Below are positions 11,569 through 48,213 of a stretch of 64,000 bases of DNA, piece after piece (the first letter of the stretch is position 1; each line of letters begins with the position of its first letter). Position numbers and translations under genes: made by a program. The notes under the pieces are model-generated. The model did not search any database. It had not been told where the DNA came from and saw nothing but the letters and a program-made list of their open reading frames with translations. Origin of the DNA: Burkholderiaceae bacterium. GTDB taxonomy: Bacteria; Pseudomonadota; Gammaproteobacteria; Burkholderiales; Burkholderiaceae_B. The stretch is taken from positions 1 through 64,000 of the forward strand of contig JAGOAJ010000014.1 of assembly GCA_017983955.1 (NCBI GenBank). Direction: 5' to 3'.

Positions 11569-11594
11569 TGCTGCGTAGTTTTGTTTCTTTTGTA

Positions 11595-11835: not shown

Positions 11836-11887
11836 CGACTTAATGTACCAACAACGCAACACCCAAAGCCAAACCCACCTACAAGAC

Positions 11888-12964: not shown

Positions 12965-13025
12965 GGTGTCTCCTGGAAATGGCGATCTTACGATATGCCT
13001 GTCCTGCGTAATTATGGCATCATAA

Positions 13026-13041: not shown

Positions 13042-13051
13042 CTGCCACGCC

Positions 13052-13482: not shown

Positions 13483-13556
13483 CATATTACCCAGCAACTT
13501 CCGTCTTTGGCACATAATGGAACCATAGGCGCACCACCGCACTCATGGAGACTGCA

Positions 13557-14735: not shown

Positions 14736-14783
14736 GCCAGACTGCGTCATGTTCCTGATTTCCTGCTCTTCACAAGGCAAGCC

Positions 14784-17841: not shown

Positions 17842-17900
17842 CGCCCTTGCGGGGTGCAGCGCCTGGCGTCGCCCCCCGCTTTGCTATTTTAGGAATCGCA

Positions 17901-30659: not shown

Positions 30660-31385
30660 TCACAATAGCGGAACCGGGACCGTCGAAACCCCTTGTTCAG
30701 CTGCAGCAGCCTCTTCAACACTCAGCGCCTGAAGGAAGGAAGGGTAATTGCGCATACCCTCCCAATACCGACGCACATTTTCAGGCAACTTGTTCAACAT
30801 ACCGACGTATTGCGCCAATAGCAATGCATAGCTTATTGATATGTCAGCGACAGTGAGGCGCCCGGCACATAAGAAGTCCCGTTCAGCAAACATAAAATCG
30901 AGTTTTCGCAAGCGTCCCAAAAAAAAACTCGTATAGTCTTCAACAACTTGGGGGAGTTTTCGTTCGTTTGGCTCAAATTGCCCATAACGTAAAATTAAAG
31001 CGTGTGGGAAAGTCAGCGTCGACTCGCCAAAGTGAAGTAGATCAAGAAACAGTCCATAGTCGTACTCGTCAGCCTCCACGTTCAGTCCTCTTGGTGAATG
31101 CTGCGCAGCTAGGAGCTGACAGATGGCTACAGATTCTGTCATGGTGTGTGTGCCATTGACATACGCAGGCACCGTGCCGAGCGGGTTTATTGATAAAAAA
31201 TCGCTGGAACACACCCGTGGTGGAAAGGCTAGCATCTTCAGTTCATAGTCCAGCTGGAGCTCTTCGAGAACCCAAAGAGGACGAAATGATCGTGCACCAA
31301 CACAATGGTAGAGCGTAGCGACCGAGCTTGTTGCGGACAATTCGTCTGAGCTATGGTGATATGTGTTGTTTGTAGCTGTTTGCAT
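30660..31385 (-). CDS. Glutathione S-transferase family protein
   Basis: A 241-residue GST-fold protein, last gene of the Rieske operon. The N-terminal thioredoxin-like domain starts at about residue 23 (TLYHCVGARSFRPLWVLEELQLDYEL) and has the cis-proline turn NPLGTVPAYVNG and the gamma-glutamyl-binding MTESVAICQLL. The all-helical C-domain has the capping motif GRLTVADISISYAL. A Ser or Cys in the CVGARS turn could activate glutathione. GST genes also occur in aromatic operons (bphK in biphenyl clusters), where they may dehalogenate or isomerise intermediates; that is only an analogy. AGAGG precedes the ATG, and the TRAP dctM stop is 14 bases upstream. Confidence 0.85.
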   Translation of the reverse strand: MQTATNNTYHHSSDELSATSSVATLYHCVGARSFRPLWVLEELQLDYELKMLAFPPRVCSSDFLSINPLGTVPAYVNGTHTMTESVAICQLLAAQHSPRGLNVEADEYDYGLFLDLLHFGESTLTFPHALILRYGQFEPNERKLPQVVEDYTSFFLGRLRKLDFMFAERDFLCAGRLTVADISISYALLLAQYVGMLNKLPENVRRYWEGMRNYPSFLQALSVEEAAAAEQGVSTVPVPLL

Positions 31386-31399
31386 AGCGCGGCCTCTAT

Positions 31400-32692
31400 C
31401 TATTTAACGTAGCTCGGGAGCCATAAAGCCAGGGAAGGGAAAGCGATCACAAACCCGCCGAGCACGACAAGCGCGAAGTTTAATGGCCACACTCTTTTAA
31501 ATATTGAGAGTATAGGGATATGGGGTAAAACGCTTCTTACCACAAAGATGTTCATTCCCACTGGGGGTGAGATCATACCGATCTGAATGGCAATGATGAC
31601 CAATATCCCGAACCATACTGGATCGAAGCCTAGATCAATGATCAATGGGAAGAACAGTGGTATGGTGAGGAGCATCATTGATATCTCCTCCATGACCGTG
31701 CCCAGAATTACGTAGATCAAGCATATGGCGATAACCACGATAATTGGGTGAAGCTCGAACATCATGACAAAATCGCGAAGATCACCCGGCATTGAGGTGT
31801 AGTTCACAAAGTTGGCAAACACCAAAGCCCCAATAACTATCAGAAAAAGCACTGCAGTAGTCCTAGCTGTTTCCGCAAGAAGATCAAACAAAATGGGCCA
31901 CGTTAGCGCACGTCGATAGAGCGCAAATACCAATGCTCCAGCGGCACCAATTCCTGCTCCCTCGGTGGTAGTAAACAGGCCTCCGTAAATACCGCCCATA
32001 ACAAGTGTAAATAAAGCTATCACTGGCCATATTGTGGGCAAAGACTGCAGTCGCTCGCGCCAAGAATGCTTTTTTCCACAAGGTGCGAGTGCGGGCGATA
32101 ACCGGGTCGTAACAGAAATGGTCGCGCAAAAGAGCAAGGCCGCCAATATTCCCGGCACGATTCCGGCGATGAACACCTTGGCGATACTTGTTTCTGTCAT
32201 GATCCCATAGAGCACCATAAATGTAGATGGAGGGATCAGAATGCCTAAAGTACCGCCCGCTGCCAGAGTACTTGCAGCAAACCCATCGTCATAATCGAAC
32301 TTTCTCATGGAAGGATAAGCAACTTTTGCAAAGGTTGCTGCGGTAGCGACGGATGAGCCGCACACAGCACCGAAGCCAGCGCAAGACATTACACTCGCCA
32401 TGGCTAAACCACCGCGCTTATGTCCCACGAATCTATAAGCAGCCTCAAACAACTCAGCAGAAACGCCCGCCCTAACGATGAGATTTCCCATCAGAATAAA
32501 GAGAGGAACAACAGACAGCGTATAGGACAGACCTGTTTCATAGACCGCCTGCCCTAGCATCGCAGAGGCTGCATTAAAGTTTACCTTCATGCCAAAGCCG
32601 ATGAAGCCGACGATGATCATGGAAAACGCTATAGGTATTCTGAGGAAGGACAAGATAAGGAATGAGGCGAAGCCGATACCAGTCTCAGTCAC
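31400..32692 (-). CDS. TRAP transporter large membrane subunit DctM (system 1)
   Basis: A 430-residue DctM-type permease of a tripartite ATP-independent periplasmic transporter, the subunit that couples substrate entry to the sodium gradient. About 12 hydrophobic segments are visible. Family stretches include PLFILMGNLIVRAGVSAELF, SCAGFGAVCGSSVATAATFAKVAYPSM, GGTLGILIPPSTFMVLYGI and the C-terminal PPVGMNIFVV. Its ATG overlaps the dctQ stop by 4 bases (ATGA), typical of translational coupling. Likely substrate: the organic acid fed into the oxygenase pathway encoded upstream. Confidence 0.92.
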   Translation of the reverse strand: MTETGIGFASFLILSFLRIPIAFSMIIVGFIGFGMKVNFNAASAMLGQAVYETGLSYTLSVVPLFILMGNLIVRAGVSAELFEAAYRFVGHKRGGLAMASVMSCAGFGAVCGSSVATAATFAKVAYPSMRKFDYDDGFAASTLAAGGTLGILIPPSTFMVLYGIMTETSIAKVFIAGIVPGILAALLFCATISVTTRLSPALAPCGKKHSWRERLQSLPTIWPVIALFTLVMGGIYGGLFTTTEGAGIGAAGALVFALYRRALTWPILFDLLAETARTTAVLFLIVIGALVFANFVNYTSMPGDLRDFVMMFELHPIIVVIAICLIYVILGTVMEEISMMLLTIPLFFPLIIDLGFDPVWFGILVIIAIQIGMISPPVGMNIFVVRSVLPHIPILSIFKRVWPLNFALVVLGGFVIAFPSLALWLPSYVK

Positions 32693-33207
32693 GGTTGGCC
32701 TCCATTGTCCAAGGTATCAGCTTCGATCCCACGCACTTTTGGAGCAACGAGAAATGCACCACACGTCAGAACCATAGTGATCATCATTAATATCGCCAGC
32801 CAACCGAGCTTGATTCCAAGTTGCCCTGTCTGCTCGCCTGAAAGCAACATCCCCTGCGCACGGTCCCATAACTGCCAGGCGATGAAGGCCGAGAAAAGTG
32901 CACACACAAGATTGGAAACGATACCTTGTATGTTGAGCATTCGCTGCGAGATGCAAGCGTCGAACAGATCAACAGTAATATGCTCGGCACGAGAAGTGGC
33001 CATGGGCAATCCAAAAAAAATTACCGCGGCAAGTAGTAACTCAGTGAGCTCCAGAGCGCCAAAGACTGGGGCGTTAAAAAAATATCGCCCAAATACATCC
33101 GCACAGGTGAGGGCAGTCATGCCGAGTAGGCTAAGCGCCGCGCCATAGTTGAGTACACGAAACGCGCACCGAGCTATCTGTGTACCTGCCACAGTAATCG
33201 TAGTCAT
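32689..33207 (-). CDS. TRAP transporter small membrane subunit DctQ (system 1)
   Basis: A 172-residue DctQ-like protein with four predicted membrane helices and the usual core around DVFGRYFFNAPVFGALELTELLLAAVIFFGLPMATSRAEHITVDL, where an Arg and Glu near the second helix are conserved. It pairs with DctM to bind the docked solute receptor. It lies 18 bases after dctP and overlaps dctM by 4. Confidence 0.88.
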   Translation of the reverse strand: MTTITVAGTQIARCAFRVLNYGAALSLLGMTALTCADVFGRYFFNAPVFGALELTELLLAAVIFFGLPMATSRAEHITVDLFDACISQRMLNIQGIVSNLVCALFSAFIAWQLWDRAQGMLLSGEQTGQLGIKLGWLAILMMITMVLTCGAFLVAPKVRGIEADTLDNGGQP

Positions 33208-33225
33208 AGTGAATATCGCTCGCTG

Positions 33226-34260
33226 TTATTTAGACGGGTTCGTAGATGAGGCAACTTGCGCTGCCGTTTCTAAGCGGAACGCCTGCAGGACCTTTGCCCC
33301 GTCCACCCCCCTGCTCTCCACCTGTTGGATCCACTTTTCTTCAAGTCCCGACGTTTTTTCACGAATTTGAGCGATAAGCCCGGGAGAGGCCATTAAGATG
33401 TTGATTCCCGCATCTCGCATGACTGTATCGGCTCTAATATCAGCTTTGTCGTAGGTATGTCCAGCCCGCCTAGCCAGCGCCTCCCCAAGCAAAGGCTCAA
33501 TTGCGGCTCTATCAGCCGCTGAAATCGAATCCCATTTGGACTCATTCATAATAATAGTGAACGCCACGTTATACAGTCCGCCTGGCATATACAGCGCATT
33601 CTTTACAAGCGGATAAAGATTGAACGAGACTGGCGAGTCTTTGTTGAACACAAAGCCGTCAATAATGCCTCCTGACATGAGTTCATACACATCCGGAGCT
33701 GGCTTTAACATTGGCGTAGCGCCCAACAGCTTGATCACGTCGTTCACTATGCCACCACCGGTGCGTAACTTAAGCCCAGAGAAATCCGCCATTGTTTTGA
33801 CCTCTCTGGTCCCCGTATATAGCTGACCCGGCCCGTGAGTAAATACGGCAAGAACCTTGACGCCTTTGTGCTCGTTGGCATCAGCTAAGTATTGATCGTA
33901 TATATGCTGATAGGCAACCGAGTTGACCTCGGCTGTTTGGCCGGACAGTGGAAACTCTGCTACGGTAGACAACAAGAATCGACCAGCTGTATAGCCATCG
34001 ACAATGAACGCAAGATCTGCAATGCCATCGCGAACAGCGTCAAACGTTTGAGCAGCTGCAGAAACTGATTTTGGAAGAATATTACATTTAACGCGTTTTT
34101 CGGTGACCCGCGCAAAGTCATCGCATAGCGGTTTTATAACCCCGGTGACAAGGGGATGGTTGACTGGAACCCAATTGGTCACGTTCACCGTCTGAGCGTA
34201 CCCAACTGATGTGAGAATACATGCAACTGTGCCTATAAATATAGAATATGCAATTTTCAT
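33226..34260 (-). CDS. TRAP transporter solute-binding protein DctP (system 1)
   Basis: Periplasmic receptor of 344 residues. I placed the start at MKIAYSIF (34260), which has AGGAG 7 bases upstream; the ATG 15 bases earlier lacks one. A signal peptide (about 1-20, ending GYAQT) precedes a DctP fold. The conserved ligand-clamping Arg is in FSGLKLRTGGGIVND and the hinge region is near MSGGIIDGFVFNKDSPVSFNLYPLVK. In this family that Arg pairs with a substrate carboxylate, so the ligand is probably an organic acid. It lies directly downstream of the ferredoxin gene, inside the oxygenase operon. Confidence 0.9.
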   Translation of the reverse strand: MKIAYSIFIGTVACILTSVGYAQTVNVTNWVPVNHPLVTGVIKPLCDDFARVTEKRVKCNILPKSVSAAAQTFDAVRDGIADLAFIVDGYTAGRFLLSTVAEFPLSGQTAEVNSVAYQHIYDQYLADANEHKGVKVLAVFTHGPGQLYTGTREVKTMADFSGLKLRTGGGIVNDVIKLLGATPMLKPAPDVYELMSGGIIDGFVFNKDSPVSFNLYPLVKNALYMPGGLYNVAFTIIMNESKWDSISAADRAAIEPLLGEALARRAGHTYDKADIRADTVMRDAGINILMASPGLIAQIREKTSGLEEKWIQQVESRGVDGAKVLQAFRLETAAQVASSTNPSK

Positions 34261-34302
34261 TATTTGTCTCCTCAATATGCCAGAATCGGCATGATAAGAA
34301 AT

Positions 34303-34626
34303 TCAGGGATTTTTGATCACTTTTTGTTCCATATAAACTTGCCCATCAACAATCTTCAGGGGAATTATTTTTAAAGGAAGTTCACCATTTTCCTTTACTT
34401 CTCCTGTCCTGATATCCCATTGCCACAGATGCTTCAAGCAAGTGAGATTAAAGCCATCACACAACCCATTGACTAGTGGTTCATCCATATGGGGACAGAG
34501 TGCTGGTACTGCATGAACTTCACCCTCATGTCGTAGAAACAAAACGTTGTTTCCATTGATTCTCAGCTCGGTCAGGCATGAGTCCTCAAGGTCATCTACG
34601 GCACACGCTTTTATCCAGTTCTCCAC
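34303..34626 (-). CDS. Rieske-type [2Fe-2S] ferredoxin of the oxygenase system
   Basis: A 107-residue soluble electron carrier that would shuttle electrons from the reductase to the oxygenase alpha subunit. The cluster ligands are in CPHMDEPL (Cys-x-His) and CLKHLWQWD (Cys-x2-His), the standard Rieske ferredoxin arrangement. The rest is the expected small beta fold (GEVHAVPALCPH; IIPLKIVDGQVYME). It lies 17 bases after the reductase gene, consistent with translation from one message. Confidence 0.92.
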   Translation of the reverse strand: MENWIKACAVDDLEDSCLTELRINGNNVLFLRHEGEVHAVPALCPHMDEPLVNGLCDGFNLTCLKHLWQWDIRTGEVKENGELPLKIIPLKIVDGQVYMEQKVIKNP

Positions 34627-34643
34627 TGCAATTCCTCCATCAA

Positions 34644-35687
34644 TTACGAAAAACGGTCAAACCGGATGTTTGTCGGTTTACATCGGCGCGACTTAAGCAA
34701 CCCCCGCACCGTGAGATCGACCATAGGCGGTGGCCCCGCCACGAATACAGTAGGGTCAGCAGACCACGTATTGAGCGAAGCAAGAACTGTCTCGTGAACT
34801 AGGCCGCTACGGAACTCAACACCAGGAAGAGATGGGAGCAAAGTTGCCGACTCTGAAAACGTGATGACTGAAGAGATTCGATTAGGCGCGTAGCTATGAA
34901 TTTGTCTCAACCTGCTAATCACTGGATCACAATCTGCCGTTCGAAGACCAATATAAATTTTCAGCAAACGAGAGCTAAGCGATGCGGAGTTGATAAATCC
35001 ATTTGCGAGGGCCATCGCCACCCCAAGACCAGAACCACCCACAACAACTGACACATCGTCTGCGTCATGTGGGTAAAGACATGCTGTGCCCATGGGGCCG
35101 AAAAGTCTAAGTTCGTCTCCGCAAGATTTCAAATCACATAATATTTTTGACAGACCGCTGGCCAGACCAACCCTAACGACGAACTTTAGGAGAAGCCCCC
35201 CTTCCTCCACCGCTGAGACCGAGTAAGCTCGAAATCCCGAAATACCTTCAGCGCCCACCAGCATGAACTGTCCAGGAGCTGGCGAATAAGGAGTCGTACA
35301 GCGGACTGAGATCTCGTACAAGCCGTGACTTAGCCGTGCGACGTCGATCAATTCAGCAGATGAGTACTCTGGAACAGAGGTGTGCCTTTCAGATAGTGTG
35401 GGGGGCGGAGTGAATGACACTACACAATCGCTTCTGGCACTACATTGGCAAAGTAGTACGCGGTTCTGATTGCCGTGTGTCGCCTTCACTCCAGGCGCTT
35501 GCGGCCATAGGTTATCTACCGAACCATACTCTACAGTCGCCAAACAACTGCCACAGGTCCCAGTAGCACATTCGTACGGAAGGTCGACTCCCGATCTGAG
35601 GCCGGCCATCAGCAGACGCTCACCAGACTTCAGTGCTACACGTGTTGAAGCACCCGTACTTGAATTGAACAGTACCTCCACATCCAT
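34644..35687 (-). CDS. Oxygenase reductase: plant-type [2Fe-2S] plus FAD/NAD domains
   Basis: A 347-residue NAD(P)H:ferredoxin reductase. The N-terminal chloroplast-type cluster domain has C-x4-C-x2-C in YECATGTCGSCLATV, with the fourth ligand in LLCQCSA. The FAD domain has the flavin motif RAYSVS. The NAD domain has VVVGGSGLGVAMA and a C-terminal FVAGPPPMVD. This order, ferredoxin-FAD-NAD, is the BenC/XylZ/MsmD layout. Together with the separate Rieske ferredoxin it makes a three-component oxygenase system. It lies 9 bases after the aldolase gene. Confidence 0.92.
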   Translation of the reverse strand: MDVEVLFNSSTGASTRVALKSGERLLMAGLRSGVDLPYECATGTCGSCLATVEYGSVDNLWPQAPGVKATHGNQNRVLLCQCSARSDCVVSFTPPPTLSERHTSVPEYSSAELIDVARLSHGLYEISVRCTTPYSPAPGQFMLVGAEGISGFRAYSVSAVEEGGLLLKFVVRVGLASGLSKILCDLKSCGDELRLFGPMGTACLYPHDADDVSVVVGGSGLGVAMALANGFINSASLSSRLLKIYIGLRTADCDPVISRLRQIHSYAPNRISSVITFSESATLLPSLPGVEFRSGLVHETVLASLNTWSADPTVFVAGPPPMVDLTVRGLLKSRRCKPTNIRFDRFS

Positions 35688-35696
35688 TCCCCTGTT

Positions 35697-36725
35697 TTAA
35701 ACCGTAACTTCGGGAACGGATCGACTTTCGGAAACCAACTTTTGCGCTTCATCAATCACAGCATCCTCCTGCGCATGAACTACTCTTCGGGCGCCAAGCC
35801 TGAGGATCAATTCACGTGGATCGCAACCATACTCACTCGCTGCTTTCTTAACTGGAAGAACATAGCCACCGTAAACATTCGCAAATCCCATCAGGATAGA
35901 GTCGTTATCGAGGCTAGGCATAGGGTGGGGCTGTACCATACTCTGGAATACGTCAGCCGCGTCGAGCGTCTCAAACAGGGTCGGGTTGATGTCATAACCT
36001 GCCTTCTTTAGCGCAGCAACGGCAACTTCAGTTTGCGCATTGCCTGCCCCACCTCCAAAGCCCTTTAAACTGCCGTCAATAAACGTCGCGCCTTCACCTA
36101 GAGCTGCCAGGATATTGCCAATCGCAAGTCCCAGGTTGTTATGAGGATGGAAGCCGATTGGTATCTTGACCGCCTTACGTACAGCCCGGATACGCTCCGC
36201 CACTTCGGAAGGCACCAGATGACCCTGAGATTCGGCCAGATTGATATACTGTGCACCGTACGATTCCATCTTCGCTGCCTCGCTAGCCAAGCGTTCCGCG
36301 CTTGCCATGCCAACTGAAACTAGGTAGCCGACGGGTAACAGCCCTAGATCAGCAGCGCGTTGTAGGTGCTGCTCGGTAATGTCAGCTTCGGTGCAGTGGG
36401 TTCCAATGCGAGCCATAGAAACACCAAGCTCAGCAGACATCTCCAAGTCCTGAAAACTCCCCATGCCGGGAATCAGAATAATAGAGATCTTTGCATTCTT
36501 CACAGCGCCTACGGCAGCTTTGATCAGCTCCATGTCCGATGTGGCAGAACGACCTACATGGATACAGCTTCCGCCAAGGCCATCGCCGTGGCCTACCTCG
36601 ATGTAATCCACACCGGCACGATCCAGCGCCGCAGCGGTCTTTGCAACAATCTCTGGAGTGAATTGATGACCGTATGTGTGGTTTCCATCACGTAACGTTA
36701 CATCAACGATAGTTACTTTAGACAT
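35697..36725 (-). CDS. 4-hydroxy-2-oxovalerate aldolase
   Basis: Class II pyruvate aldolase that splits 4-hydroxy-2-oxoacids, typically 4-hydroxy-2-oxovalerate to pyruvate plus acetaldehyde. It is 342 residues, the usual DmpG/BphI/MhpE length. The N-terminal signature TLRDGNHTYGHQFT carries Arg12, metal ligand Asp13 and the catalytic His20; family members usually have TLRDGxHAxRHQ. The metal pair is His193/His195 in GFHPHNNLGL. FGGGAGNAQTE and the helical C-terminal domain (HAQEDAVIDEAQKLV) form the interface with acetaldehyde dehydrogenase. It follows the dehydrogenase by 14 bases, and the two enzymes normally form a channelling complex. Confidence 0.94.
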   Translation of the reverse strand: MSKVTIVDVTLRDGNHTYGHQFTPEIVAKTAAALDRAGVDYIEVGHGDGLGGSCIHVGRSATSDMELIKAAVGAVKNAKISIILIPGMGSFQDLEMSAELGVSMARIGTHCTEADITEQHLQRAADLGLLPVGYLVSVGMASAERLASEAAKMESYGAQYINLAESQGHLVPSEVAERIRAVRKAVKIPIGFHPHNNLGLAIGNILAALGEGATFIDGSLKGFGGGAGNAQTEVAVAALKKAGYDINPTLFETLDAADVFQSMVQPHPMPSLDNDSILMGFANVYGGYVLPVKKAASEYGCDPRELILRLGARRVVHAQEDAVIDEAQKLVSESRSVPEVTV

Positions 36726-36739
36726 AGAATTCCCCTTAC

Positions 36740-37621
36740 TTAGTGAACATGCAGAGCGGCATATCGTTCTGCTACGGCGATTGCAGCGGCGTTGATGATA
36801 TCGAGATTGCCCGCATAAATAGGAAGGTAATCTCCTGCTCCCTCGACTTCAACGCTAACCATAAAATGGTCCCCTCTACGAAATGGCTCAACGACAAGCC
36901 TGTAACCTGGGACATACTGCTGAACTCGGGCGACCATTTCATTAATTGACTTGTGCAGTTCTTTCTCGTCGGTATCTTCGTCCATGACAGCGTAGATCGT
37001 ATTGCGCATGATCAGGGGAGGGTCTGCTGGGTTCAGCACCACCATGGCCTTGCCGCGCGTAGCCCCCCCAATCTCTTGAATAGCACGGGCAGTTGTATGG
37101 GTAAATTCTTCAATGTTGTCTCGAGCGCCTTTACCAGCGCCCTTGCTCGCGATCGTGGCAACGATCTCGGCATAATGCACTTTACCAACCCGGCTGAATC
37201 CGTACACCAACGGGATCGTGGCCTGAGCGGCGCACGATATCAGGTTCACGTTTGACATTGAACCCATGTCGGCAAGATTCACACACGGCACGACGCTAGG
37301 GCCAACCTTCGCGGGTGTCAAGTCTATTGCTCTTATTCCTGCCGCTTCAAATCGAGGAGCGTTTGCTAGATGTGCTTTTGCAGAAGTTGCTTCAAAAACA
37401 AGATCTATGTCTCGACATTCAAGAACTGCCTCCACGCCATCCGCAGATGTTGTTATACCCAATTCCCTGGCTCTTGCGAGCCCATCGGATGCTGGGTCAA
37501 TACCTGCAACGAGCTTCAAATTAAAGTTCTCGTTGCGCAGTGCCTTATAGGCAAGATCGGTCCCTATGTTTCCGGATCCCAATATCGCTACATTCAGTTT
37601 TCGTTTTACCTGCTCCAACAT
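36740..37621 (-). CDS. Acetaldehyde dehydrogenase (acylating)
   Basis: Converts acetaldehyde, CoA and NAD to acetyl-CoA, partner of the aldolase. The 293-residue protein has the Rossmann start LNVAILGSGNIGTDL, the ATSAKAH loop, and the nucleophile Cys130 in NLISCAAQATIPLV. In the DmpF/BphJ/MhpF enzymes I know, this reads CGGQAT, so the Gly-Gly next to the cysteine is Ala-Ala here. The dimer/aldolase-contact region VVLNPADPPLIMRNTIYAVM and the C-terminal AGNLDIINAAAI are standard. AGGAGA precedes the ATG. Confidence 0.93.
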   Translation of the reverse strand: MLEQVKRKLNVAILGSGNIGTDLAYKALRNENFNLKLVAGIDPASDGLARARELGITTSADGVEAVLECRDIDLVFEATSAKAHLANAPRFEAAGIRAIDLTPAKVGPSVVPCVNLADMGSMSNVNLISCAAQATIPLVYGFSRVGKVHYAEIVATIASKGAGKGARDNIEEFTHTTARAIQEIGGATRGKAMVVLNPADPPLIMRNTIYAVMDEDTDEKELHKSINEMVARVQQYVPGYRLVVEPFRRGDHFMVSVEVEGAGDYLPIYAGNLDIINAAAIAVAERYAALHVH

Positions 37622-37673
37622 TTGCTTGTCTCCTTTGTGGAAAAATCCAGCTAAAAATTTCTAGGGCACTCGT

Positions 37674-38138
37674 TCATAGAGGGACGTGCACGCCTGGCCC
37701 CAGGTCTTGCGTGTGCAACACAAGTTCACGATCTTGCAGTTTCGGGGAAGTGGGTTGTGCTAGATCAATGGTGTCTATGTATGTACCAATGGCAAGAATG
37801 GAAGATGTCCCGTTCGGATTAGTCTGAAAAACGGCGACTTTGCTACGAGTCCGGATTTTATTGGGCTCTATTTCCGTCACATTGGTTACCGTGGCATGGC
37901 GACTCAGCTTGGCGTCCACTCGAACGTGCTCGGGAATCATCTTGATCAACATCTCGAAGCCTTTGCGATCATGCTGAAGCCACACCATATCTTTGCCTAG
38001 ATCCGGACTAAATGTCCTGACGACATACTCGAAATCGGACGAGCATTGCTCGAGAAACTCACCGAATCGCTCTTCGTCCAGTAGCTCACATGTCTGGCCT
38101 ATGAAATCGGTCGCCGTGGCTCTTGCCGTACTGTTCAT
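37674..38138 (-). CDS. Ring-hydroxylating oxygenase beta (small) subunit
   Basis: A 154-residue protein of the SnoaL/NTF2-like beta-subunit family of Rieske oxygenases. These subunits are structural and complete an alpha3beta3 oxygenase. Recognisable parts are the N-terminal helix (ATDFIGQTCELLDEERFGEFLEQ), the sheet with FEYVVRTFSP and the segment HATVTNVTEIEPNKIRTRSKVAVFQT. I place the start at 38138 because AGGAG is 6 bases before it and would overlap the ATG at 38144. It begins 9 bases after alpha. Similarity beyond the fold is loose. Confidence 0.85.
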   Translation of the reverse strand: MNSTARATATDFIGQTCELLDEERFGEFLEQCSSDFEYVVRTFSPDLGKDMVWLQHDRKGFEMLIKMIPEHVRVDAKLSRHATVTNVTEIEPNKIRTRSKVAVFQTNPNGTSSILAIGTYIDTIDLAQPTSPKLQDRELVLHTQDLGPGVHVPL

Positions 38139-38147
38139 TCTCATCTC

Positions 38148-39377
38148 CTAAGACTGAGCAAAGGCAGGCTCCATGCCTGCTTCGACCTTTGCGCGTACAT
38201 CGAATGGATCACTGGCCTGTCGATTCATTTTCTTTCCCCAGACCCTGTAGTACGCACGCATGATCTCGTCGTCTTGCGCTAGCAAATTCTCATGTCGGGC
38301 AATCAAACCGTACCTAGAGGCACCATGTACGCTGGACCTTTGCACGGCCTCCACAAAAATCAGATCTTCGGGAAGGTTTCTACCCAACGGTCCCCATATT
38401 TGATTGTGGTGCTTACGGCGTTCCTTACGATCATCAGGCGACTCGCCCTTGATACCCAACCCACGTTGTTCAACTATCGTCAGCCCCGGCGCAATAGGCG
38501 TGCTCGTGTCGATTCTGACGTTCGTAGCTCGAACAATTATGGTGGTATTGGGAAATAGATCTGCGAAGCGGAACTCTCCCGGCGTTAACCCCGGTAACTC
38601 TAGAGCATCACGTGCGGAAAAACCTTTGTAATTTTGATACTTAACCTGGAAGGGACGCATGGTTCCATGCCCCTCAGGGTGGATTTGCCACGTACGCTCG
38701 TGGTACCCGTCTACAGCGATACTCGTTGCCCTGTTAACTACATGCCCCCACTCGTGGTAAAGCTCCATGTTGGTTTCATGCCATTGCTTCCAGTTCGCTT
38801 TGACGATCGCCCGATGTAAATGAAATACCTCAAGTGGCTGGGTTCCCATACACTCCTCAAGGTGCTCCATCGCGTTACCAATGTGATCAAGAAAATCATC
38901 GGCGGCGTCGTTGAGACTAACAAAATAAAGGCCCAGCTTCTCCGCAATACGGACCTTACGCAAGCCGCAGGAATCTTGGTTAAAGCCTACTTTGGTATAC
39001 CCCTCCGGTCGAGTGATGTGCGTGCAACTTCCTTTATCGTCGAACGACCATAGGTGAAAGAAGCAAGTAAGGTGACGCGCATTGCCGCGTCGTGCTCGTA
39101 CCAATGGGGCGCCCCGATGGGGGCAGGCGTTCACGAACGCACGAACCTGTCCGTCAGCTCCGCGCAAGAGCACAACGGAGACGCCAGCGACATCAGTTAC
39201 TCGATAATCTCCTGGATCTGGCATCTCACTTTCATGACACGCGAATTTCCATGCCTTTGCAAAGATATTCTTTCGTTCTTCATCAAGAATCTGCTGACTT
39301 GTATATATCGCACTGTCAACATAGTGATCTGAGGGCACGGGCGGCGGTGACGCCCACTCAGTACCATTCTTAGCCAT
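38148..39377 (-). CDS. Rieske non-heme iron oxygenase alpha subunit
   Basis: Catalytic subunit of 409 residues. The Rieske domain has Cys85-x-His87 in NACPHRGAPL and Cys105-x2-His108 in TCFFHLW, with 17 residues between the pairs (normal). The catalytic domain has the expected mononuclear-iron helix in NWKQWHETNMELYHEWGHV. This gives bridging residue Glu205, His208 and His212, with Asp338 in LPEDLIFVEAVQ as the probable third ligand. Two features are odd. The bridging residue is Glu, not the usual Asp, as I recall for carnitine oxygenase CntA. The two histidines are separated by three residues, not four. The substrate cannot be assigned. It is the first structural gene after the IclR regulator, with AGGAG before the ATG. 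Confidence 0.92.
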   Translation of the reverse strand: MAKNGTEWASPPPVPSDHYVDSAIYTSQQILDEERKNIFAKAWKFACHESEMPDPGDYRVTDVAGVSVVLLRGADGQVRAFVNACPHRGAPLVRARRGNARHLTCFFHLWSFDDKGSCTHITRPEGYTKVGFNQDSCGLRKVRIAEKLGLYFVSLNDAADDFLDHIGNAMEHLEECMGTQPLEVFHLHRAIVKANWKQWHETNMELYHEWGHVVNRATSIAVDGYHERTWQIHPEGHGTMRPFQVKYQNYKGFSARDALELPGLTPGEFRFADLFPNTTIIVRATNVRIDTSTPIAPGLTIVEQRGLGIKGESPDDRKERRKHHNQIWGPLGRNLPEDLIFVEAVQRSSVHGASRYGLIARHENLLAQDDEIMRAYYRVWGKKMNRQASDPFDVRAKVEAGMEPAFAQS

Positions 39378-39397
39378 ATCTAGTCTCCTTAGTGTTC

Positions 39398-40276
39398 TTA
39401 CCGGTCAGACTCATCTCTGAAGCCGACTTGTTGGACATTGGTTGTAGAATTGAACATAAAAAATAATGAACGCAGGTCGGGACCGCTGTGCGAAAGCAAG
39501 GAAGCAGACGTGCGCATAGCAAAACCGATTTCCTTTTCTCTGTCTGACGTAATAGCATCCGAGCGTGCCGTGATAGCCAGGCACCCAAGTATTTTTTGCG
39601 AATACATCAACGGCGCTGCCATAGAGGTAATTCCGAGGTAGGGTTCATCTCGGCCCACTGAGTACCCTTGTTGCCGAACCTCTGACAAAGCCTCAGCAAA
39701 CTGTGCAGGACTAATCGCCGTTTTCGGAGTAACAGCCTCGTAAGGCCCGTTTCCTAGCAGAGCGGCCCGTTCCTTATCGGTCTTCCACGCAACCAATATC
39801 TTCCCCGTAGCCGAAGCGTGAAGCGGGCTATCGAGCCACGTATCGTAATAGGGCACCAGTTGATGTGCACCGCGTGCGACGTCCACCGTCATTCGTTTAT
39901 CGCCTACAAAAATGATCAGCGTTGTGGTTTGGCCTGACGTATCGCGTAATGACTCGAGAATCGGTCGGGCCGTTCGCCGAAGTTCGCTGATGGGGTGCAG
40001 GAGACGCAAAGTAGACAATGCCCGAGGACCGGCCATGTAACGCTTCGTGTTCTCCTCTCTTGCCGCGTAGCCTAAATCAATAAGCGTCTGTAAGAGTCTA
40101 TGCGTGCTTGAGGTATCAAAGCCGGAAATTGCCGCCAAATCGGTCAGGCTCACCGGTGCCAGTGACTCAAGCAACAACTCAACAAGACACAAGCCTTTTT
40201 GTAATGAACCTACCGCGCCTTTAAGTTCCGGTCTCTTCTCAGACGCTATGTCTTTCTTAGGATCTGCCTTGGCCAT
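39398..40276 (-). CDS. IclR-family transcriptional regulator
   Basis: A 292-residue regulator heading the operon. The N-terminal winged helix-turn-helix (VGSLQKGLCLVELLLESLAPVSLTDLAAISGFDTSSTHRLLQTLIDLGYA) is followed by the IclR effector domain with SPLHASATGKILVAW and GYSVGRDEPYLGITSMAAPL. IclR proteins control many aromatic and small-acid catabolic operons, as activators or repressors with a metabolite ligand. It lies 20 bases upstream of the alpha gene in the same direction. A perfect inverted repeat 18 bases upstream of its start is a likely autoregulatory site. It is the only regulator in the cluster. Confidence 0.92.
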   Translation of the reverse strand: MAKADPKKDIASEKRPELKGAVGSLQKGLCLVELLLESLAPVSLTDLAAISGFDTSSTHRLLQTLIDLGYAAREENTKRYMAGPRALSTLRLLHPISELRRTARPILESLRDTSGQTTTLIIFVGDKRMTVDVARGAHQLVPYYDTWLDSPLHASATGKILVAWKTDKERAALLGNGPYEAVTPKTAISPAQFAEALSEVRQQGYSVGRDEPYLGITSMAAPLMYSQKILGCLAITARSDAITSDREKEIGFAMRTSASLLSHSGPDLRSLFFMFNSTTNVQQVGFRDESDR

Positions 40277-40899: not shown

Positions 40900-42177
40900 C
40901 TAGCCATACACCAAGACCTTGAAGAACAGGCTAATTTGGGGCATATAAGTAATCAGCATCAGGCAGGTCACCACCACAGCGACAAAAGGCAGCAAGGGCC
41001 TGATCAATCGTTCTAGCGGTATATTCGCCACCGTGCAGGCAGCAAACAGATTGACCCCGAACGGCGGTGTCACCATACCCAAGGCCAGGTTGACCACCAT
41101 GATGACCCCAAAGTGCGCTGGATCAACCCCGAACTGCATAGCCACGGGCAGCAGCAACGGAGCCAGCACGACAATGGACGCCGAGGTTTCGATAAACATG
41201 CCTATCAAGAACAGAGCAAGGTTTACCCCCAATAGGAAGGTGTACTTGTCACTGAAAATATGACCTAACCATTCGCCCAACGCGGCCGGTATACCGGCGC
41301 GATTCAACAAAAACCCGAATACGCCAGCATTGGCGATAATAAACATAATGACGGCTGTGGAAATCACCGACCTATGTAAGGTTTTAGAAAGGTTAGCAAA
41401 GGTTAGGCGACGATAGATAAAAATCCCCACCACCAAGGCATACACCACGGCAACGGCTGACGCCTCTGTTGGCGTAAATATGCCGCCGTAAATACCGCCC
41501 AGAATAATTCCCGGCATTAACAGCGCCAACCAGGCGCGCTTAAACGCTGGCCAAAGGCCCAGCCTGCCAACGCCGTCGTTCTTGCCATACCCATGGCGAC
41601 GGGCATAAAACCACACATACAAGCCCAGTGCGAACCCTATAAGCAGGCCAGGCCCTATACCGGCAATAAATAATTCACCCACAGACGTATCGGTTGCCAC
41701 GGCAAACAAAATCATGGGTATGGACGGCGGAATAATCACGCCCAGCTCTGCGGCCGTGGCCTGCAGCGACGCCGCAAAAGGCTTGGGGTAACCGTGCTTG
41801 ACCATGGCGGGTATCAAGATGGCCCCCACGGCAAACGTAGTTGCCACGCTGGACCCAGCCACAGCGGCAAATATCATGCAGGTCAACACGCAACTGATGG
41901 CCAAGCCGCCCTGCAGGCCACCCACCACGCTTTTGGCGAAGTCCACCATGCGTTCAGAAATGCCGCCCGCCTCCATCAGGTTGCCGGCCAATATAAAAAA
42001 CGGCACAGCTACCAAGGGGTATTTATCCAGTGACGCATAAATTTGCTGCGCCACCACCAACCATGTCATATTCCCATCCCAGGCTACGCCCAGCATGCTG
42101 GCCAGGCCTATGGCCACAGCCACTGGCACCGACAGGCCAAAGAACAACAACATGGATACAACCATCAACTGAGGCAT
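40900..42177 (-). CDS. TRAP transporter large membrane subunit DctM (system 2)
   Basis: A 425-residue DctM permease with about 12 membrane segments. Family landmarks are YPLVAVPFFILAGNLMEAGGISERMVDFA, AVAGSSVATTFAVGAILIPAMVKHGYP, GVIIPPSIPMILFAVATDTSVGELF, GIFTPTEASAVAVVYAL and TPPFGVNLFAACTV near the end. It is the last gene of a dctP-dctQ-dctM operon, 28 bases after dctQ. The solute is not predictable from DctM. Confidence 0.92.
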   Translation of the reverse strand: MPQLMVVSMLLFFGLSVPVAVAIGLASMLGVAWDGNMTWLVVAQQIYASLDKYPLVAVPFFILAGNLMEAGGISERMVDFAKSVVGGLQGGLAISCVLTCMIFAAVAGSSVATTFAVGAILIPAMVKHGYPKPFAASLQATAAELGVIIPPSIPMILFAVATDTSVGELFIAGIGPGLLIGFALGLYVWFYARRHGYGKNDGVGRLGLWPAFKRAWLALLMPGIILGGIYGGIFTPTEASAVAVVYALVVGIFIYRRLTFANLSKTLHRSVISTAVIMFIIANAGVFGFLLNRAGIPAALGEWLGHIFSDKYTFLLGVNLALFLIGMFIETSASIVVLAPLLLPVAMQFGVDPAHFGVIMVVNLALGMVTPPFGVNLFAACTVANIPLERLIRPLLPFVAVVVTCLMLITYMPQISLFFKVLVYG

Positions 42178-42205
42178 GCTTACACCTGATCGCGGATATT
42201 TTTAA

Positions 42206-42700
42206 TTAAATGACGGTGTCATCAACGATGGCCTGCCGAGGACCTTGGGCCCAATGCGCCACTACGCCAATAATGGCCAGCGTCATGCCTATAGGAATGG
42301 CAACGTATATCCAGGAAATGGACATGTCCAGACTGGGCATGGTCTGAAACCGCACCCGCCATGTCATTTGGCCGCCTACCCAGGCCATAAAGCCCAGAAA
42401 ACAGACGGTAATGAATAAAATGACATGTTCCAGCTTGCGCTTATTACGTGGTGCAAGAATGCTGTGCAGCATTTCCACGCTAAGCATGGCCCCTTGGCGA
42501 AACGCCATGGACACACCCAGCATCACAGTCCAAATTAGCGCAGCACGTGTCCAGGCTTCGCTCCAGTCGGCAGGAGTCTCCAACACAAAGCGTGCCAGCA
42601 CCTGATAAAAGCCTGCAGCTACCGCTGACAACAACAAAAGCTGGGTAATGATAGACACCAGTCTAAACAGACGGCGGTCCAGAGTATGAAGTAATGACAC
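42206..42700 (-). CDS. TRAP transporter small membrane subunit DctQ (system 2)
   Basis: A 164-residue, four-helix DctQ protein containing QVLARFVLETPADWSEAWTRAALIWTVMLGVSMAFRQGAMLSVEML, the usual second and third helices with the conserved Arg and Glu. Translation starts with GTG at 42700, with AGGA 7 bases upstream; no better ATG is near. A large hairpin lies between it and dctP. Confidence 0.87.
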   Translation of the reverse strand: MSLLHTLDRRLFRLVSIITQLLLLSAVAAGFYQVLARFVLETPADWSEAWTRAALIWTVMLGVSMAFRQGAMLSVEMLHSILAPRNKRKLEHVILFITVCFLGFMAWVGGQMTWRVRFQTMPSLDMSISWIYVAIPIGMTLAIIGVVAHWAQGPRQAIVDDTVI

Positions 42701-42755
42701 GGAAATTTCCTGTGTTCTGTACTAGGCGCAATATAGGCCAGGAAAAACAACAACA

Positions 42756-42805
42756 CGGCGGGTTATGTATCTGTATCTATTACTAGTCCCAGATACATAC
42801 CGCCG
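42756..42805 (-). promoter_or_regulatory. Intercistronic stem-loop between dctP and dctQ
   Basis: Arms CGGCGG and TATGTATCTG pair with CAGATACATA and CCGCCG, giving 16 base pairs with a 2-base bulge and a 16-base loop. It lies 15 bases after the dctP stop in the message. Similar structures after solute-receptor genes protect the upstream mRNA or partly terminate, so that receptor exceeds permease. That role is inferred here. Confidence 0.6.
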
Positions 42806-42819
42806 CGAAACAGTATGAA

Positions 42820-43791
42820 TTACTTGGTGTTCTGGATGGACTCAACCAATTCCTGACCAAACTGTTTGTAGTACTGCGGGTACACCGGCTGTACAGCCTT
42901 CACAAACGCAGCATGATCCACCGTATTGACCTGCATGCCTTGTTTTTTAACTTCTTCTATGCCGCTTGTTTCGATGTCATCAACGTAGGTACGCATGGCC
43001 AAGGCAGACTGGTGGCCTGCATCGGCAAACTTAGCCTTGTCAGCATCAGATAAGCCGTTGTAAACATTGGGGGACATCAGCACCAAGGCGGGGCCGTAAA
43101 CGTGGGCGGTCAACGACAAGTATTTTTGCAACTGCGGCAGCTTGGCCGACACGATTACGGACATGGGATTTTCCTGGCCGTCTATAGTGCCTTGCTGCAA
43201 GGCCGTGGCGACCTCAGGCCAGGCCATAGGGGTAGCCAAGATACCCAACTCGCGGAAGGCTGCAATGTGTATAGGGTTTTCCGTGGTGCGGATTTTTAGA
43301 CCCTTGGCATCTGCAGGTGTAGTTACTGGACGCACGTTATTGGTCAGTTGGCGAAAGCCCTGCTCACCCCAGGCCAAGGCCACCAGGCCGCGCTTGGGAA
43401 ATTCGGTCAGCATTTTTTTACCAATATCGCCATCCAGCACTTTACGTGCATGGTCAAGGTCGCGGAATAGGAAGGGGATATCAAATACGCCCGTGGCTGG
43501 TACAAAGTTCAACGTTGCACCCGTTGACACGATGGCCAAGTCTATCGTACCCAGCTGCAGGCCTTCGATAACCTCGCGTTCACCGCCTAGTGCACTATTG
43601 GGAAACTGTTGTACTTTAAAGTCTGAACCGTTCAGAGCTTTCGCAAAAGCGTCGGCGCCTGCACCATAGTGCGAACTGGTCGATAGTGCGTACGCCATCT
43701 TCAGAGTGGTTTCCGCGGTCACAGGGGTAGCAGCAAAAAGGCCTGCAGCGGACACCGCCAGCAGCACATTAGATAACCAGGATTTACGCAT
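42820..43791 (-). CDS. TRAP transporter solute-binding protein DctP (system 2)
   Basis: A 323-residue periplasmic receptor with a signal peptide (about residues 1-26, ending TPVTAET). The DctP family motif LKIRTTENPIHIAAFRELGILATPMAWPEVATALQQGTIDGQENP carries the carboxylate-binding Arg and the conserved QxGxxDGQE turn. This version, with ENPIHIAAFRELG and GQENP, is typical of C4-dicarboxylate/sialic-acid-like receptors, but the ligand is undetermined. First gene of the operon. Confidence 0.92.
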   Translation of the reverse strand: MRKSWLSNVLLAVSAAGLFAATPVTAETTLKMAYALSTSSHYGAGADAFAKALNGSDFKVQQFPNSALGGEREVIEGLQLGTIDLAIVSTGATLNFVPATGVFDIPFLFRDLDHARKVLDGDIGKKMLTEFPKRGLVALAWGEQGFRQLTNNVRPVTTPADAKGLKIRTTENPIHIAAFRELGILATPMAWPEVATALQQGTIDGQENPMSVIVSAKLPQLQKYLSLTAHVYGPALVLMSPNVYNGLSDADKAKFADAGHQSALAMRTYVDDIETSGIEEVKKQGMQVNTVDHAAFVKAVQPVYPQYYKQFGQELVESIQNTK

Positions 43792-43910
43792 GTTTGAGTT
43801 CCATCACAGTGTTTGATAAGCCCGACGGGCTGTTATTTGATAGGGCGGCAGGCCGCCCTCCCAGTGTTTTTAACAGAAACACCAGAGACAGACTACTGGG
43901 GTTTCTCCGC

Positions 43911-45692
43911 CTAATCCTCGACGTACCAGGTGTCTTCCGACAACATGACCTGTTGATGCCCATAGCCTGCAGGCATCATGGGAAAACAGTTTTCCTGGGC
44001 TAACACGACTACATCCAAAAAGAACGGCCCGTCATACGCCATGCAAGCAGCCAACGCCGCAGGCAAGTCTGCGGGGTCTTCAACACGGGCGGCGCCCCAG
44101 CCAAAGGCTTTGGCCAACGCTACGAAATCAGGCAGCGACGCGTTATAACTGTGGCTATAACGCCCTTCGTGTATCAGTTCCTGCCACTGGCGCACCATGC
44201 CCATATGGCCGTTATTGCATAACACGACCTTGACCGGCGTCTGGTGCTGGGTCGCGGTAGCCAGTTCCTGGATGTTCATCAACACCGAGGCGTCGCCACT
44301 GACGCACACTACCAGCTTGTCGGGGTGGGCCACTTGGGCACCTATAGCTGCAGGCAGTCCATAGCCCATGGTGCCAGCGCCACCTGATGTCAGCCAGCGA
44401 TTGGGACGGTTGAATTTCAGGTATTGCGCAGCCCACATCTGGTGCTGGCCCACGTCGGTAGACACGATGGCATCAGTACCCGTCAGCTCCTGCTCTAGGG
44501 CCTGCATCAGACGCTGCGGCAAGATGTGCTGGGCCGAATCCGGCACCTTCAAGCAATCCTGGGCCCGCCACACGCCTATGCGTTGCCACCAGTCATCCAG
44601 TCGACCCGCGGCCAGATCGAACTGATCCAGTTCCTTGCGTAAGGCGCGCAGCAGTGGGTAGCAATCACCCACCATGGCCACATCCGCGCGCACTACCTTG
44701 TTGATAGAGGCAGGATCGATGTCCAAGTGAATTTTGCTGGCATGAGGACAAAAATCTGACAAACGCCCCGTAATACGGTCATCAAAGCGCGCGCCCACGC
44801 AAATAATCAGATCGGCATGGTGCATGGACAGGTTGGCTTCCAGCGTGCCGTGCATGCCCAGCATGCCCACAAACAAGGGGTCTTCGGCAGGAAAGCTGCC
44901 CAAACCCATCAAGGTCAGCGTGCACGGTCCGCCCACATGCTGAACCAGACTGGCAAAGGCATGACAGGCGTCCAGCCCTGAATTGATCAAACCACCGCCA
45001 CCATAAAATACGGGGCGACGCGCATTGGCAATCAGGGAGGCAGCCCGTTTAACGGCTGCTTCGGCCGACGGACCCGTAGCGTCCAGGTTGACATCGATGT
45101 CGATAGTGTCGGTCGACGGGCTTGCCGCCGGAACTGGGTGAATTTGTATGTCTTTGGGGAAATCCAGCAAAACAGGCCCAGGACGCCCAGATGTCGTCAA
45201 CTGAAAAGCCTTGGCGGTTAGCGCGACCACGTCTTCGCTACGCTTGATTTGGGCATTCCATTTAGTGACCGGGCGTGAAATACCCACCGCATCACATTCC
45301 TGGAAGGCATCCGTGCCTATGGCGCTGGTGGCCACCTGACCGCTGATACACAACACCGGTATAGAGTCGCACAAAGCATCCAACAGGCCCGAAGCGGTAT
45401 TGGCCATGCCTGGCCCTGACGTCACCAGTACTACACCTGGCTTGCCGGTAGAGCGAGCATAGCCTTCGGCGGCATGCATTGCCCCCTGTTCATGCCTGAC
45501 CAGCACGTGGCGTATGCGCGGCTCGGAATACAGCGCGTCGTACAAAGGCAGGACAGCGCCACCAGGGTAGCCAAAGATGGTATCCACGCCATGGGCAATC
45601 AGGGTGTCCAGCATGGCTTGCGCGCCGGTGCGGGCGGGCGATGGTTCAACCGTGTTCGCGACATCGGCTTTTATTTCGTAAGATGTAGACAT
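43911..45692 (-). CDS. Acetolactate synthase large subunit, stand-alone
   Basis: ThDP- and FAD-dependent synthase making acetolactate (or acetohydroxybutyrate) for branched-chain amino-acid synthesis. The 593-residue protein shows the catalytic Glu68 in [16 protein letters not shown] and [14 protein letters not shown] at the start. FAD-region sequence includes [34 protein letters not shown]. The ThDP motif is [17 protein letters not shown]...CNN, with Ala where many have GDGS. The C-terminus [11 protein letters not shown] is diagnostic of ALS. No ilvN/ilvH small subunit is adjacent, so it may work with one encoded elsewhere or be insensitive to feedback. It is divergent from the SET gene. Confidence 0.9.
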
Positions 45693-45761: not shown

Positions 45762-46280
45762 ATGAGTTCAAAACCACTCCCCTGGCACGTCGTGCAGCAA
45801 TCCACCCTACATGGTACCGGTGTTTTCGCCGCACGCAACATTCCCGCCGGCACCCGAATTTTTCAATACGCTGGCAGACGCATCACGGTAGAGCAAGCCG
45901 ATGCACTGCCACCCAGCAATCCCGACGAACCCTTTCATACCTTTTTCTTTTCCCTAAGCTCTGGGAAAATCATTGATGGCGGGCAGCGCGGCAACGACTC
46001 ACGCTGGATCAACCATGCCTGCCAGCCCAATTGCGAGGGACAGGAAAACGCCGACGGCACCCGCGTTTATATTGTCGCTTTAGAAGACATCAGCGCCGGT
46101 GACGAATTGCTGTACGACTACTGCCTGCAAATCGACGAACCCCTAACCCAAGAGCTACGCGACCAATACCGCTGCCTGTGCGGCAGCAGCAATTGCCGAG
46201 GCACCTTGCTGGAAGTGTCCAAAGAAAAACCAGCGACGGGCGGGAAACCCCGGACAGCCAAAAAACCGATAGCGGGGTAG
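45762..46280 (+). CDS. SET-domain lysine methyltransferase-like protein
   Basis: A 172-residue bacterial SET protein. SET motifs in order: HGTGVFAARNIPAGTRIFQYAG near residues 17-38, RWINHACQPNCEG (Asn84-His85, AdoMet pocket) and GDELLYDYC (catalytic Tyr118/Tyr120). A post-SET cysteine cluster follows, RCLCGSSNCRGT (Cys138, Cys140, Cys145), which with Cys87 would bind zinc. The tail is lysine-rich. It is complete and compact, so it is probably active on a protein lysine, but the target is unknown. Small SET proteins occur sporadically in proteobacteria. It lies upstream of TRAP system 3, 47 bases before dctQ, perhaps by chance. Confidence 0.9.
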   Translation: MSSKPLPWHVVQQSTLHGTGVFAARNIPAGTRIFQYAGRRITVEQADALPPSNPDEPFHTFFFSLSSGKIIDGGQRGNDSRWINHACQPNCEGQENADGTRVYIVALEDISAGDELLYDYCLQIDEPLTQELRDQYRCLCGSSNCRGTLLEVSKEKPATGGKPRTAKKPIAG

Positions 46281-46327
46281 GATACGGGCTTCATTGCAAC
46301 ACTAACATACATAAGCACGCGTTTTTC

Positions 46328-48162: not shown

Positions 48163-48213
48163 AGCCAGTGCTCTTGCCTGTTATGTTGTTTACCCTATGA
48201 ATAAGGACTGTCC

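Follow-up and report, generated by a model that had tools for sequence, protein, structure and literature searches.

An MsmA-related Rieske oxygenase operon, probably for a sulfonate, with a seemingly neofunctionalised aldolase/dehydrogenase pair

The window analysed here comprises 64,000 nucleotides from a Burkholderiaceae bacterium (assembly GCA_017983955.1, contig JAGOAJ010000014.1, positions 1 to 64,000), and its minus strand carries, from 30660 to 40276, eleven genes: an IclR-type regulator, the alpha and beta subunits of a Rieske oxygenase, an acylating aldehyde dehydrogenase (AcDH), a pyruvate aldolase (ALD), a reductase, a Rieske ferredoxin, the DctP, DctQ and DctM components of a tripartite ATP-independent periplasmic (TRAP) importer, and a glutathione S-transferase (GST)-like protein. 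We read this operon as a novel form of the sulfonate monooxygenase operons of the MsmA type, in which the aldolase and the dehydrogenase make up a pair that seems to have been neofunctionalised. The components can be read directly from the DNA, and from them we infer a sulfonate as the substrate, the release of sulfite, and the direction and substrate of the aldolase. The operon would thus rather probably (though far from certainly) serve to take up a small aliphatic sulfonate and to cleave it.

Kinship of the oxygenase

The best of the NCBIfam ring-hydroxylase models scores 129.9 bits against alpha (cut-off 671.9) and covers only residues 23-209; alpha falls outside the ring-dioxygenase equivalogs of the benzoate, anthranilate and biphenyl types, and its best PDB match spans residues 17-235. 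The closest full-length plasmid relative is from Hydrogenophaga PBL-H3 (65%), where the oxygenase and the pair are ordered as in the window, but the TRAP genes precede a PDR/VanB-type reductase. The next plasmid relatives, at about 40%, are those of Methylobacterium nodulans, Paraburkholderia graminis PHS1 and pAKD33. In M. nodulans the operon runs alpha, beta, ferredoxin, reductase, TauE-type sulfite exporter, molybdopterin oxidoreductase, cytochrome c, and the alpha has a 26-residue spacer in the CXH-Xn-CXXH motif. PMC4433239 describes this spacer as characteristic of MsmA, which is the methanesulfonate monooxygenase (MSAMO) large subunit, in proven methanesulfonate users, and lists short-spacer 'MsmA' proteins as well, whose function it calls unproven; PMC7143210 uses the 26-residue spacer likewise. 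By this criterion the window alpha, with its spacer of 17 residues, is not MSAMO.

When a genome collection was scanned with nine aligned alphas, 373 stretches matched a pattern, and 80 loci were kept of 248 relatives. In an IQ-TREE phylogeny of 95 alphas (92 different; the repeats or near-copies L001, L005-L009, L018 and L026 and rows with fewer than 320 aligned residues were excluded), which includes neither an outgroup nor an experimentally proven MsmA, the window alpha falls in a 16-row clade (100/99), outside a 55-row clade (100/100) that contains every 26-spacer row. The window clade, all 16 rows of which have the 17-residue spacer, spans Hydrogenophaga, Ramlibacter, Polaromonas, Limnohabitans, Lacisediminimonas, Allopusillimonas, Bordetella trematum and Roseovarius, besides one metagenome-assembled genome (MAG) each from the Ectothiorhodospiraceae, the Rhodospirillales and the betaproteobacteria. 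The 26-spacer alphas form one clade of eight rows with methylotroph taxa among them (99/87), and a second that unites P. graminis with the first of two oxygenases at three Roseovarius loci (100/100). The window type is rare, with four of 369 genomes of the class (its own included) matching at 1e-50. As far as this phylogeny and the alignments go, the window oxygenase is a relative of methanesulfonate-monooxygenase-like (MsmA-like) enzymes. A sequence-only reading of the window, which had proposed such a phylogeny, had seen no obvious described counterpart to the unit, a claim that the kinship of the oxygenase does not support.

Two further observations concern the wider alpha family. An alphaproteobacterial MAG (L096) carries three MsmA-related alpha genes in about 6 kb (at 6272, 8962 and 10827), and an alpha-beta-TSUP block is nearly identical in the IncP plasmid pAKD33 (L013), a gammaproteobacterial MAG (L092) and Ramlibacter albus (L077), which suggests recent horizontal spread.

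An operon-specific aldolase/dehydrogenase pair

ALD is recognisably a member of the DmpG/MhpE family, as it exceeds the TIGR03217 cut-off and has the metal-binding HxH, the R-D-x-x-H motif and the communication domain. Twelve operon-linked aldolases (eleven from the window clade, including that of the window, and the one of P. graminis) were compared with eleven other DmpGs, namely eight chosen among 45 listed of 307 plasmid records, MhpE of E. coli, the pWW0 enzyme, and the second copy of the own genome. Identity to the window ALD is 65-74% for the operon-linked aldolases and at most 47% for the eleven others, a set from which a 49% match from Rhodococcus opacus (H40) was left out; in the order, only three of 399 genomes match at 1e-115. 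The twelve operon-linked pairs fall together on one side of a branch in the trees of both ALD (100/100) and AcDH (100/99), and the branch of the ALD clade is long (1.45). The P. graminis pair nests inside this clade although its alpha, with 39% identity to that of the window, belongs to a 26-spacer clade, which means that a single kind of pair has joined two oxygenase clades, one with the 17-residue and one with the 26-residue spacer. At three Roseovarius loci (L024, L025, L027) a 26-spacer and a 17-spacer oxygenase stand in tandem with one common pair.

At 48 positions of ALD a residue common to at least 11 of the 12 operon aldolases is present in no more than one of the 11 others. The substitutions that hold in all twelve (operon residue first) are S137/M, G139/H, N162/Y, E165/D, G225/A, N283/G, G286/S (the serine in 10 of the 11 others), G287/S or T, and Y288/F; in addition, R59 is found in 11 of the 12, where 10 of the 11 others have phenylalanine. 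The residues R12, D13, H16, H193, H195 and Y285, which we take to be the catalytic residues of the family, are invariant across the ten operon aldolases aligned. The ends of several barrel strands are changed, with R-D-x-x-H, H-x-H and Tyr285 kept, where strand assignments and residue roles are assumed from what is known of the family. The AlphaFold model of ALD (mean pLDDT 73.6; below 50 in segments 219-229 and 268-288) is too weak there to place R59 or the other changed residues in the lining of the pocket. AcDH retains the catalytic Cys130, has CAAQ instead of CGGQ, and shows 14 clade-specific differences. To judge from these substitutions and the trees, the operon pair looks neofunctionalised.

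One could imagine that these changes suit a smaller aldehyde, and that a methanesulfonate-like substrate yields formaldehyde, which the changed aldolase condenses with pyruvate and/or the dehydrogenase turns into formyl-CoA. The kinship with MsmA-like alphas agrees with such a route, but the window-clade alphas lie outside the methylotroph-type 26-spacer clade, and at L010 and L012, the two loci searched for methylotrophy genes, none is annotated nearby. We consider it highly improbable.

Gene neighbourhoods

Genes within 9 kb on either side of alpha (where the contig allows) were classified by hidden Markov models (HMMs) made from the reference sequences of this analysis (E <=1e-12), with L026 dropped as a near-copy of L019. 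Since some positives (the YeiH loci and several control hydratases) were also HMM references, positive counts partly restate annotation and BLAST; 'SorA' here stands for the molybdopterin-oxidoreductase family, often about 30% identical to the reference.

Among the 15 loci of the window clade the pair is present at 11 and the sulfite-resistance protein YeiH at four (L010, L024, L028 and L029), while XylE-type, MhpB, MhpD-type and C-C hydrolase genes were each found at none; in the window itself, no gene of the ring-cleavage and hydratase families searched lies within 9 kb of alpha. A gene resembling 2-hydroxymuconic semialdehyde dehydrogenase (HMSD) was matched weakly at two of the 15. The XylG-like matches at L021 and L038 score 211-325, whereas the L044 gene reaches 759; the two were therefore rejected as HMSD and taken as general aldehyde dehydrogenases. 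Eleven other DmpFG pairs, most of them with shorter flanks, served as controls. Here the MhpD family occurs at nine and an extradiol dioxygenase at eight (XylE type at six, MhpB at two), while TauE, SorA and YeiH were found at none. The difference in the MhpD family (none of the 11 pair-bearing clade loci versus nine of the 11 controls) corresponds to Fisher P = 0.0002.

Sulfite-handling genes are frequent around some other groups of alphas. The eight loci of the 26-spacer clade that contains methylotrophs have TauE at six, SorA at four and either at seven, with YeiH at one, and the single P. graminis locus combines the pair with a TauE-type gene (a TSUP transporter) and an HMSD-like gene. In a residual group of 42 loci, which is not a strict clade, TauE is found at eight, SorA at 13, either at 20 and XylE at one, and in the pAKD group TauE at three of nine. 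Downstream of the MsmA-related alphas of Noviherbaspirillum and Hydrogenophaga aromaticivorans (L041 and L044) stand catechol-2,3-dioxygenase-like and HMSD-like genes; there the oxygenase is perhaps an aryl-sulfonate dioxygenase.

A possible link to sulfite

PMC12880088 describes YeiH as conferring sulfite resistance on Salmonella. The four YeiH-bearing loci of the window clade come from four different lineages: at L024 the gene stands in line behind ALD, at L029 it closes the gene row after an NMT1-type ATP-binding cassette (ABC) importer behind the operon, and at L010 and L028 it lies upstream, together with a LysR gene. Four occurrences in 259 kb compare with about 0.08 expected (Poisson P about 1e-6), given a background of one per 3.32 Mb taken from the own genome only. 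In addition, an SsuD-like alkanesulfonate monooxygenase lies near the two window-clade alphas of L030 (TIGR03565, 271 bits, below the cut-off of 518). PMC4334477 names cuyZ of Ruegeria as a sulfite exporter. Elsewhere in the own genome, unlinked to the operon, are one YeiH, nine TauE matches (eight over the cut-off) and seven genes of the sulfite-oxidase family.

The importers vary among loci (two kinds of TRAP, and NMT1-type ABC), which fits an anionic substrate in general. TRAP systems that import small sulfonates are known, and the TRAP family suits organic acids as a whole. The oxygenase could instead hydroxylate a non-sulfonated aliphatic acid directly to a 4-hydroxy-2-oxo acid (e.g. at C4 of a 2-oxo acid), with the nearby sulfite genes being incidental. 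The substrate of the aldolase would then be made in one step, and 11 of the 15 clade loci do lack a sulfite gene; against this stand YeiH at four loci in four lineages, the TSUP gene of P. graminis, the SsuD-like gene of L030, and the kinship with MsmA. We regard a non-sulfonated substrate as unlikely, and a sulfonic acid as more likely than a carboxylic one.

Source of the aldolase substrate

In meta-cleavage pathways a hydratase feeds the aldolase, and the operon could be one part of a split pathway of this kind, with the oxygenase acting on an aromatic acid and the extradiol dioxygenase, hydrolase and hydratase encoded elsewhere. The own genome (3.32 Mb, 94.5% complete) indeed has an MhpD-like hydratase (52%), an XylG-like dehydrogenase (60%) and an XylI-like gene (37%) on another contig, C26, and a XylE-type gene lies near three distant relatives of the window alpha (L041, L042 and L044). 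However, a second, canonical AcDH/ALD (DmpFG) pair, 48%/42% identical to that of the window, is found on contig C1 and could serve C26, and this genome may thus have a separate lower route served by a pair of its own. The C1 pair (L138, G000:C1:21000-40000, 8245-18408) sits among TRAP genes, an IclR gene and an aldA-like gene, and neither an MhpD-family nor an extradiol gene was found in the 19 kb examined around it. None of the nine PF00903 frames in the genome has the size of a two-domain extradiol dioxygenase (one, of 374 residues, is presumably 4-hydroxyphenylpyruvate dioxygenase), and there is a single LigB-family frame of about 270 residues.

With the C26 hydratase as query, eight of 13 clade genomes gave a match at 1e-15 and five did not (L021, L024, L025, L027 and L030). 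Among the nine pair-bearing genomes, which are drafts like the others searched (L025 being a MAG), five have an MhpD-family match (L019, L020, L028, L029 and L038; best E from 1e-23 to 1e-72) and four have none at that threshold (L021, L024, L025 and L027). A search with ALD covered nine genomes, six with a match and three without, and in the five pair-bearing genomes among them the operon copy is the sole DmpG-like protein at 1e-30. Since four of nine pair-bearing genomes gave no hydratase match and these five showed no further DmpG-like protein, a hydratase is unlikely to be the source of the aldolase substrate across the family, although single genomes may differ. Together with the lack of extradiol, hydratase and C-C hydrolase genes at all 15 clade loci, this makes the split pathway very improbable. 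The sequence-only reading had left two alternatives, of which the non-aromatic acid fits the evidence, while a pathway middle encoded elsewhere has become unlikely (in the own genome the hydratase and the canonical pair are on other contigs). Its central observation, that the aldolase pair is here accompanied by no ring-cleavage enzymes, has held up across the conserved neighbourhoods, and a self-contained catabolic unit that works without ring cleavage is supported. The search it had proposed for the missing genes in the rest of the genome was answered in part, by the hydratase, XylG-like and XylI-like genes of C26, and no two-domain extradiol dioxygenase came to light among the PF00903 frames.

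Proposed pathway

For a small aliphatic sulfonate, the pathway would run as follows. The TRAP system would import the sulfonate, and electrons would pass from NADH via the reductase and the Rieske ferredoxin to the Rieske centre of alpha and on to its mononuclear iron. The alpha-beta monooxygenase would then hydroxylate the sulfonate-bearing carbon, and the hydroxylated product would break down to a carbonyl compound with loss of sulfite, like that of methanesulfonate monooxygenase. Most likely, ALD would split a 4-hydroxy-2-oxo acid into pyruvate and a short aldehyde, which AcDH would convert to an acyl-CoA. As a more specific and tentative proposal, the Rieske desulfonation may itself make the 4-hydroxy-2-oxo acid, which the neofunctionalised DmpG-type aldolase (with R59 in 11 of 12) and its channelling dehydrogenase would turn into pyruvate and acyl-CoA, besides the sulfite, needing neither ring cleavage nor a hydratase. 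The same module would have been joined to two MsmA-related oxygenase clades, and the pathway would be an undescribed one.

Less likely, the oxygenase yields the short aldehyde directly: ethanesulfonate or propanesulfonate would give acetaldehyde or propanal plus sulfite, AcDH would make the acyl-CoA, and ALD would be kept mainly as the obligate partner. A DmpF-type dehydrogenase needs the aldolase as its partner, and C1-C3 sulfonates are substrates of MSAMO; moreover, such a route employs AcDH in its canonical activity, shows why a hydratase can be dispensed with, and agrees with the pair being common to both oxygenase clades. For a mere partner, however, ALD would hardly need to retain its catalytic residues while differing consistently from other DmpGs in all twelve cases, and we consider this alternative rather unlikely.

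Several findings weigh against the cleavage of a sulfonate by this operon and against the proposed role of the pair. The 26-residue spacer of MsmA is missing from the whole window clade. No sulfite-handling gene lies within 9 kb of the window alpha; at the 15 clade loci TauE and SorA are both absent throughout, and YeiH is absent at 11. Four window-clade loci (L022, L023, L030 and L031) have no pair, and the operon-type aldolase was not found in their genomes either: those of L023, L030 and L031 have no DmpG-like match at 1e-30, and that of L022 has one canonical DmpG-like aldolase (40%) beside hydratase-family genes. The genes on C26 and the five hydratase-bearing genomes belong here as well. 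Furthermore, no sulfite genes were found at the nine loci of the basal group (basal18) or at the four of the XylE clade, two of which have XylE, so that sulfonate use need not extend to the whole alpha family. Finally, biochemical data on any member of the clade did not turn up in the literature searched. Nor did titles and the starts of abstracts in the open-licence PMC literature reveal a described operon of this kind.

The tie between a short-spacer clade of MsmA relatives and a dedicated pair in beta-, gamma- and alphaproteobacteria narrows down the product. If the proposed pathway is true, it would extend the sulfonate part of the sulfur cycle by a route that recovers carbon, and the annotation of such pairs as 'meta pathway' would be wrong.

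Organisation of the operon

The order and close spacing of the eleven genes on one strand (Table 1) are as the sequence-only reading had described them. Successive intergenic gaps measure 20, 3, 52, 14, 9, 17, 27, 18, -4 and 14 bases, the largest thus being 52, and there are no internal stops. The G+C content is 50.3%, versus 54.4% for the window. The layout recurs in other genera and is therefore not due to chance. The IclR cluster is present at 12 of 15 relatives' loci (here including L026 and excluding the window), and beta matches six plasmid records, the same six that rank top for alpha. For the GST-like gene no counterpart was found among the best BLAST hits at other loci, and it is probably an accessory outside the conserved unit.

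Table 1 Genes of the operon, in order of transcription
Feature	Coordinates	Strand	Basis
IclR-family regulator, first gene	39398..40276	-	PF01614/PF09339
Rieske oxygenase alpha, MsmA-related, 409 residues	38148..39377	-	PF00355, PF00848; CXH-X17-CXXH; tree of 95 alphas
Rieske oxygenase beta, 156 residues	37674..38144	-	PF00866, 27.6 bits (cut-off 27)
Acylating aldehyde dehydrogenase AcDH (DmpF/MhpF family), 293 residues, operon-specific clade	36740..37621	-	TIGR03215, 412.7 bits (cut-off 282.25)
Class II pyruvate aldolase ALD (DmpG/MhpE family), 342 residues, operon-specific clade	35697..36725	-	TIGR03217, 374.7 bits (cut-off 286); 1nvm_A at 1.6e-76
2Fe-2S reductase (BenC/AntC/MmoC-like), 347 residues	34644..35687	-	NF040810 below cut-off; PF00111; plant-type CX4CX2C
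Rieske ferredoxin, 107 residues	34303..34626	-	PF00355; CXH-X16-CXXH
TRAP DctP (solute-binding)	33226..34275	-	PF03480
TRAP DctQ	32689..33207	-	PF04290
TRAP DctM	31400..32692	-	TIGR00786 over cut-off
GST-like protein	30660..31385	-	PF02798

Directly upstream of the operon, on the minus strand at 40900-45692, stand an acetolactate-synthase-like thiamine diphosphate enzyme (TIGR00118, 714 bits) and then another TRAP transporter, the second of the window; the plus strand encodes a third at 46178-49245. Sulfoacetaldehyde acetyltransferase (Xsc) was considered for the 593-residue frame upstream of the operon and rejected, the frame being acetolactate-synthase-like.

Comparison with known systems

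With MsmABCD of Methylosulfonomonas and relatives, as described in PMC4433239, the operon shares alpha, beta, a Rieske ferredoxin and a plant-type ferredoxin reductase; the window alpha aligns over its full length with 26-spacer relatives (36-42%), and sulfite-handling genes lie near its relatives. It differs in the spacer (17 versus 26 residues), in the gene order (A-B-[AcDH-ALD]-Red-Fd versus A-B-Fd-Red, the pair being extra), and in having a TRAP importer instead of the ABC importer msmEFGH. The PDB entry 8jng ('methanesulfonate monooxygenase ferredoxin subunit') was not used as an anchor to a solved MsmA, as it was only a weak match of a relative's ferredoxin (38.5 bits). The short-spacer 'MsmA' proteins of Methyloversatilis, Ralstonia and Thiobacillus listed in PMC4433239 may be compared with L086, L088 and L094, which come from the same or like-named taxa and have the short spacer and the order A-B-Red-Fd; these, however, fall in the 55-row clade outside the window clade and lack the pair.

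The pair has both subunits, the DmpG communication domain and the catalytic residues in common with DmpFG, MhpEF, XylKQ and BphIJ (PDB 1nvm), but forms a separate long-branch clade with clade-fixed ALD residues and without a hydratase-family gene nearby. The flavin-dependent alkanesulfonate monooxygenases SsuD and MsuD catalyse the same net chemistry as proposed here (sulfonate to carbonyl and sulfite), but they are unrelated enzymes, the window oxygenase being of the Rieske non-haem iron type.

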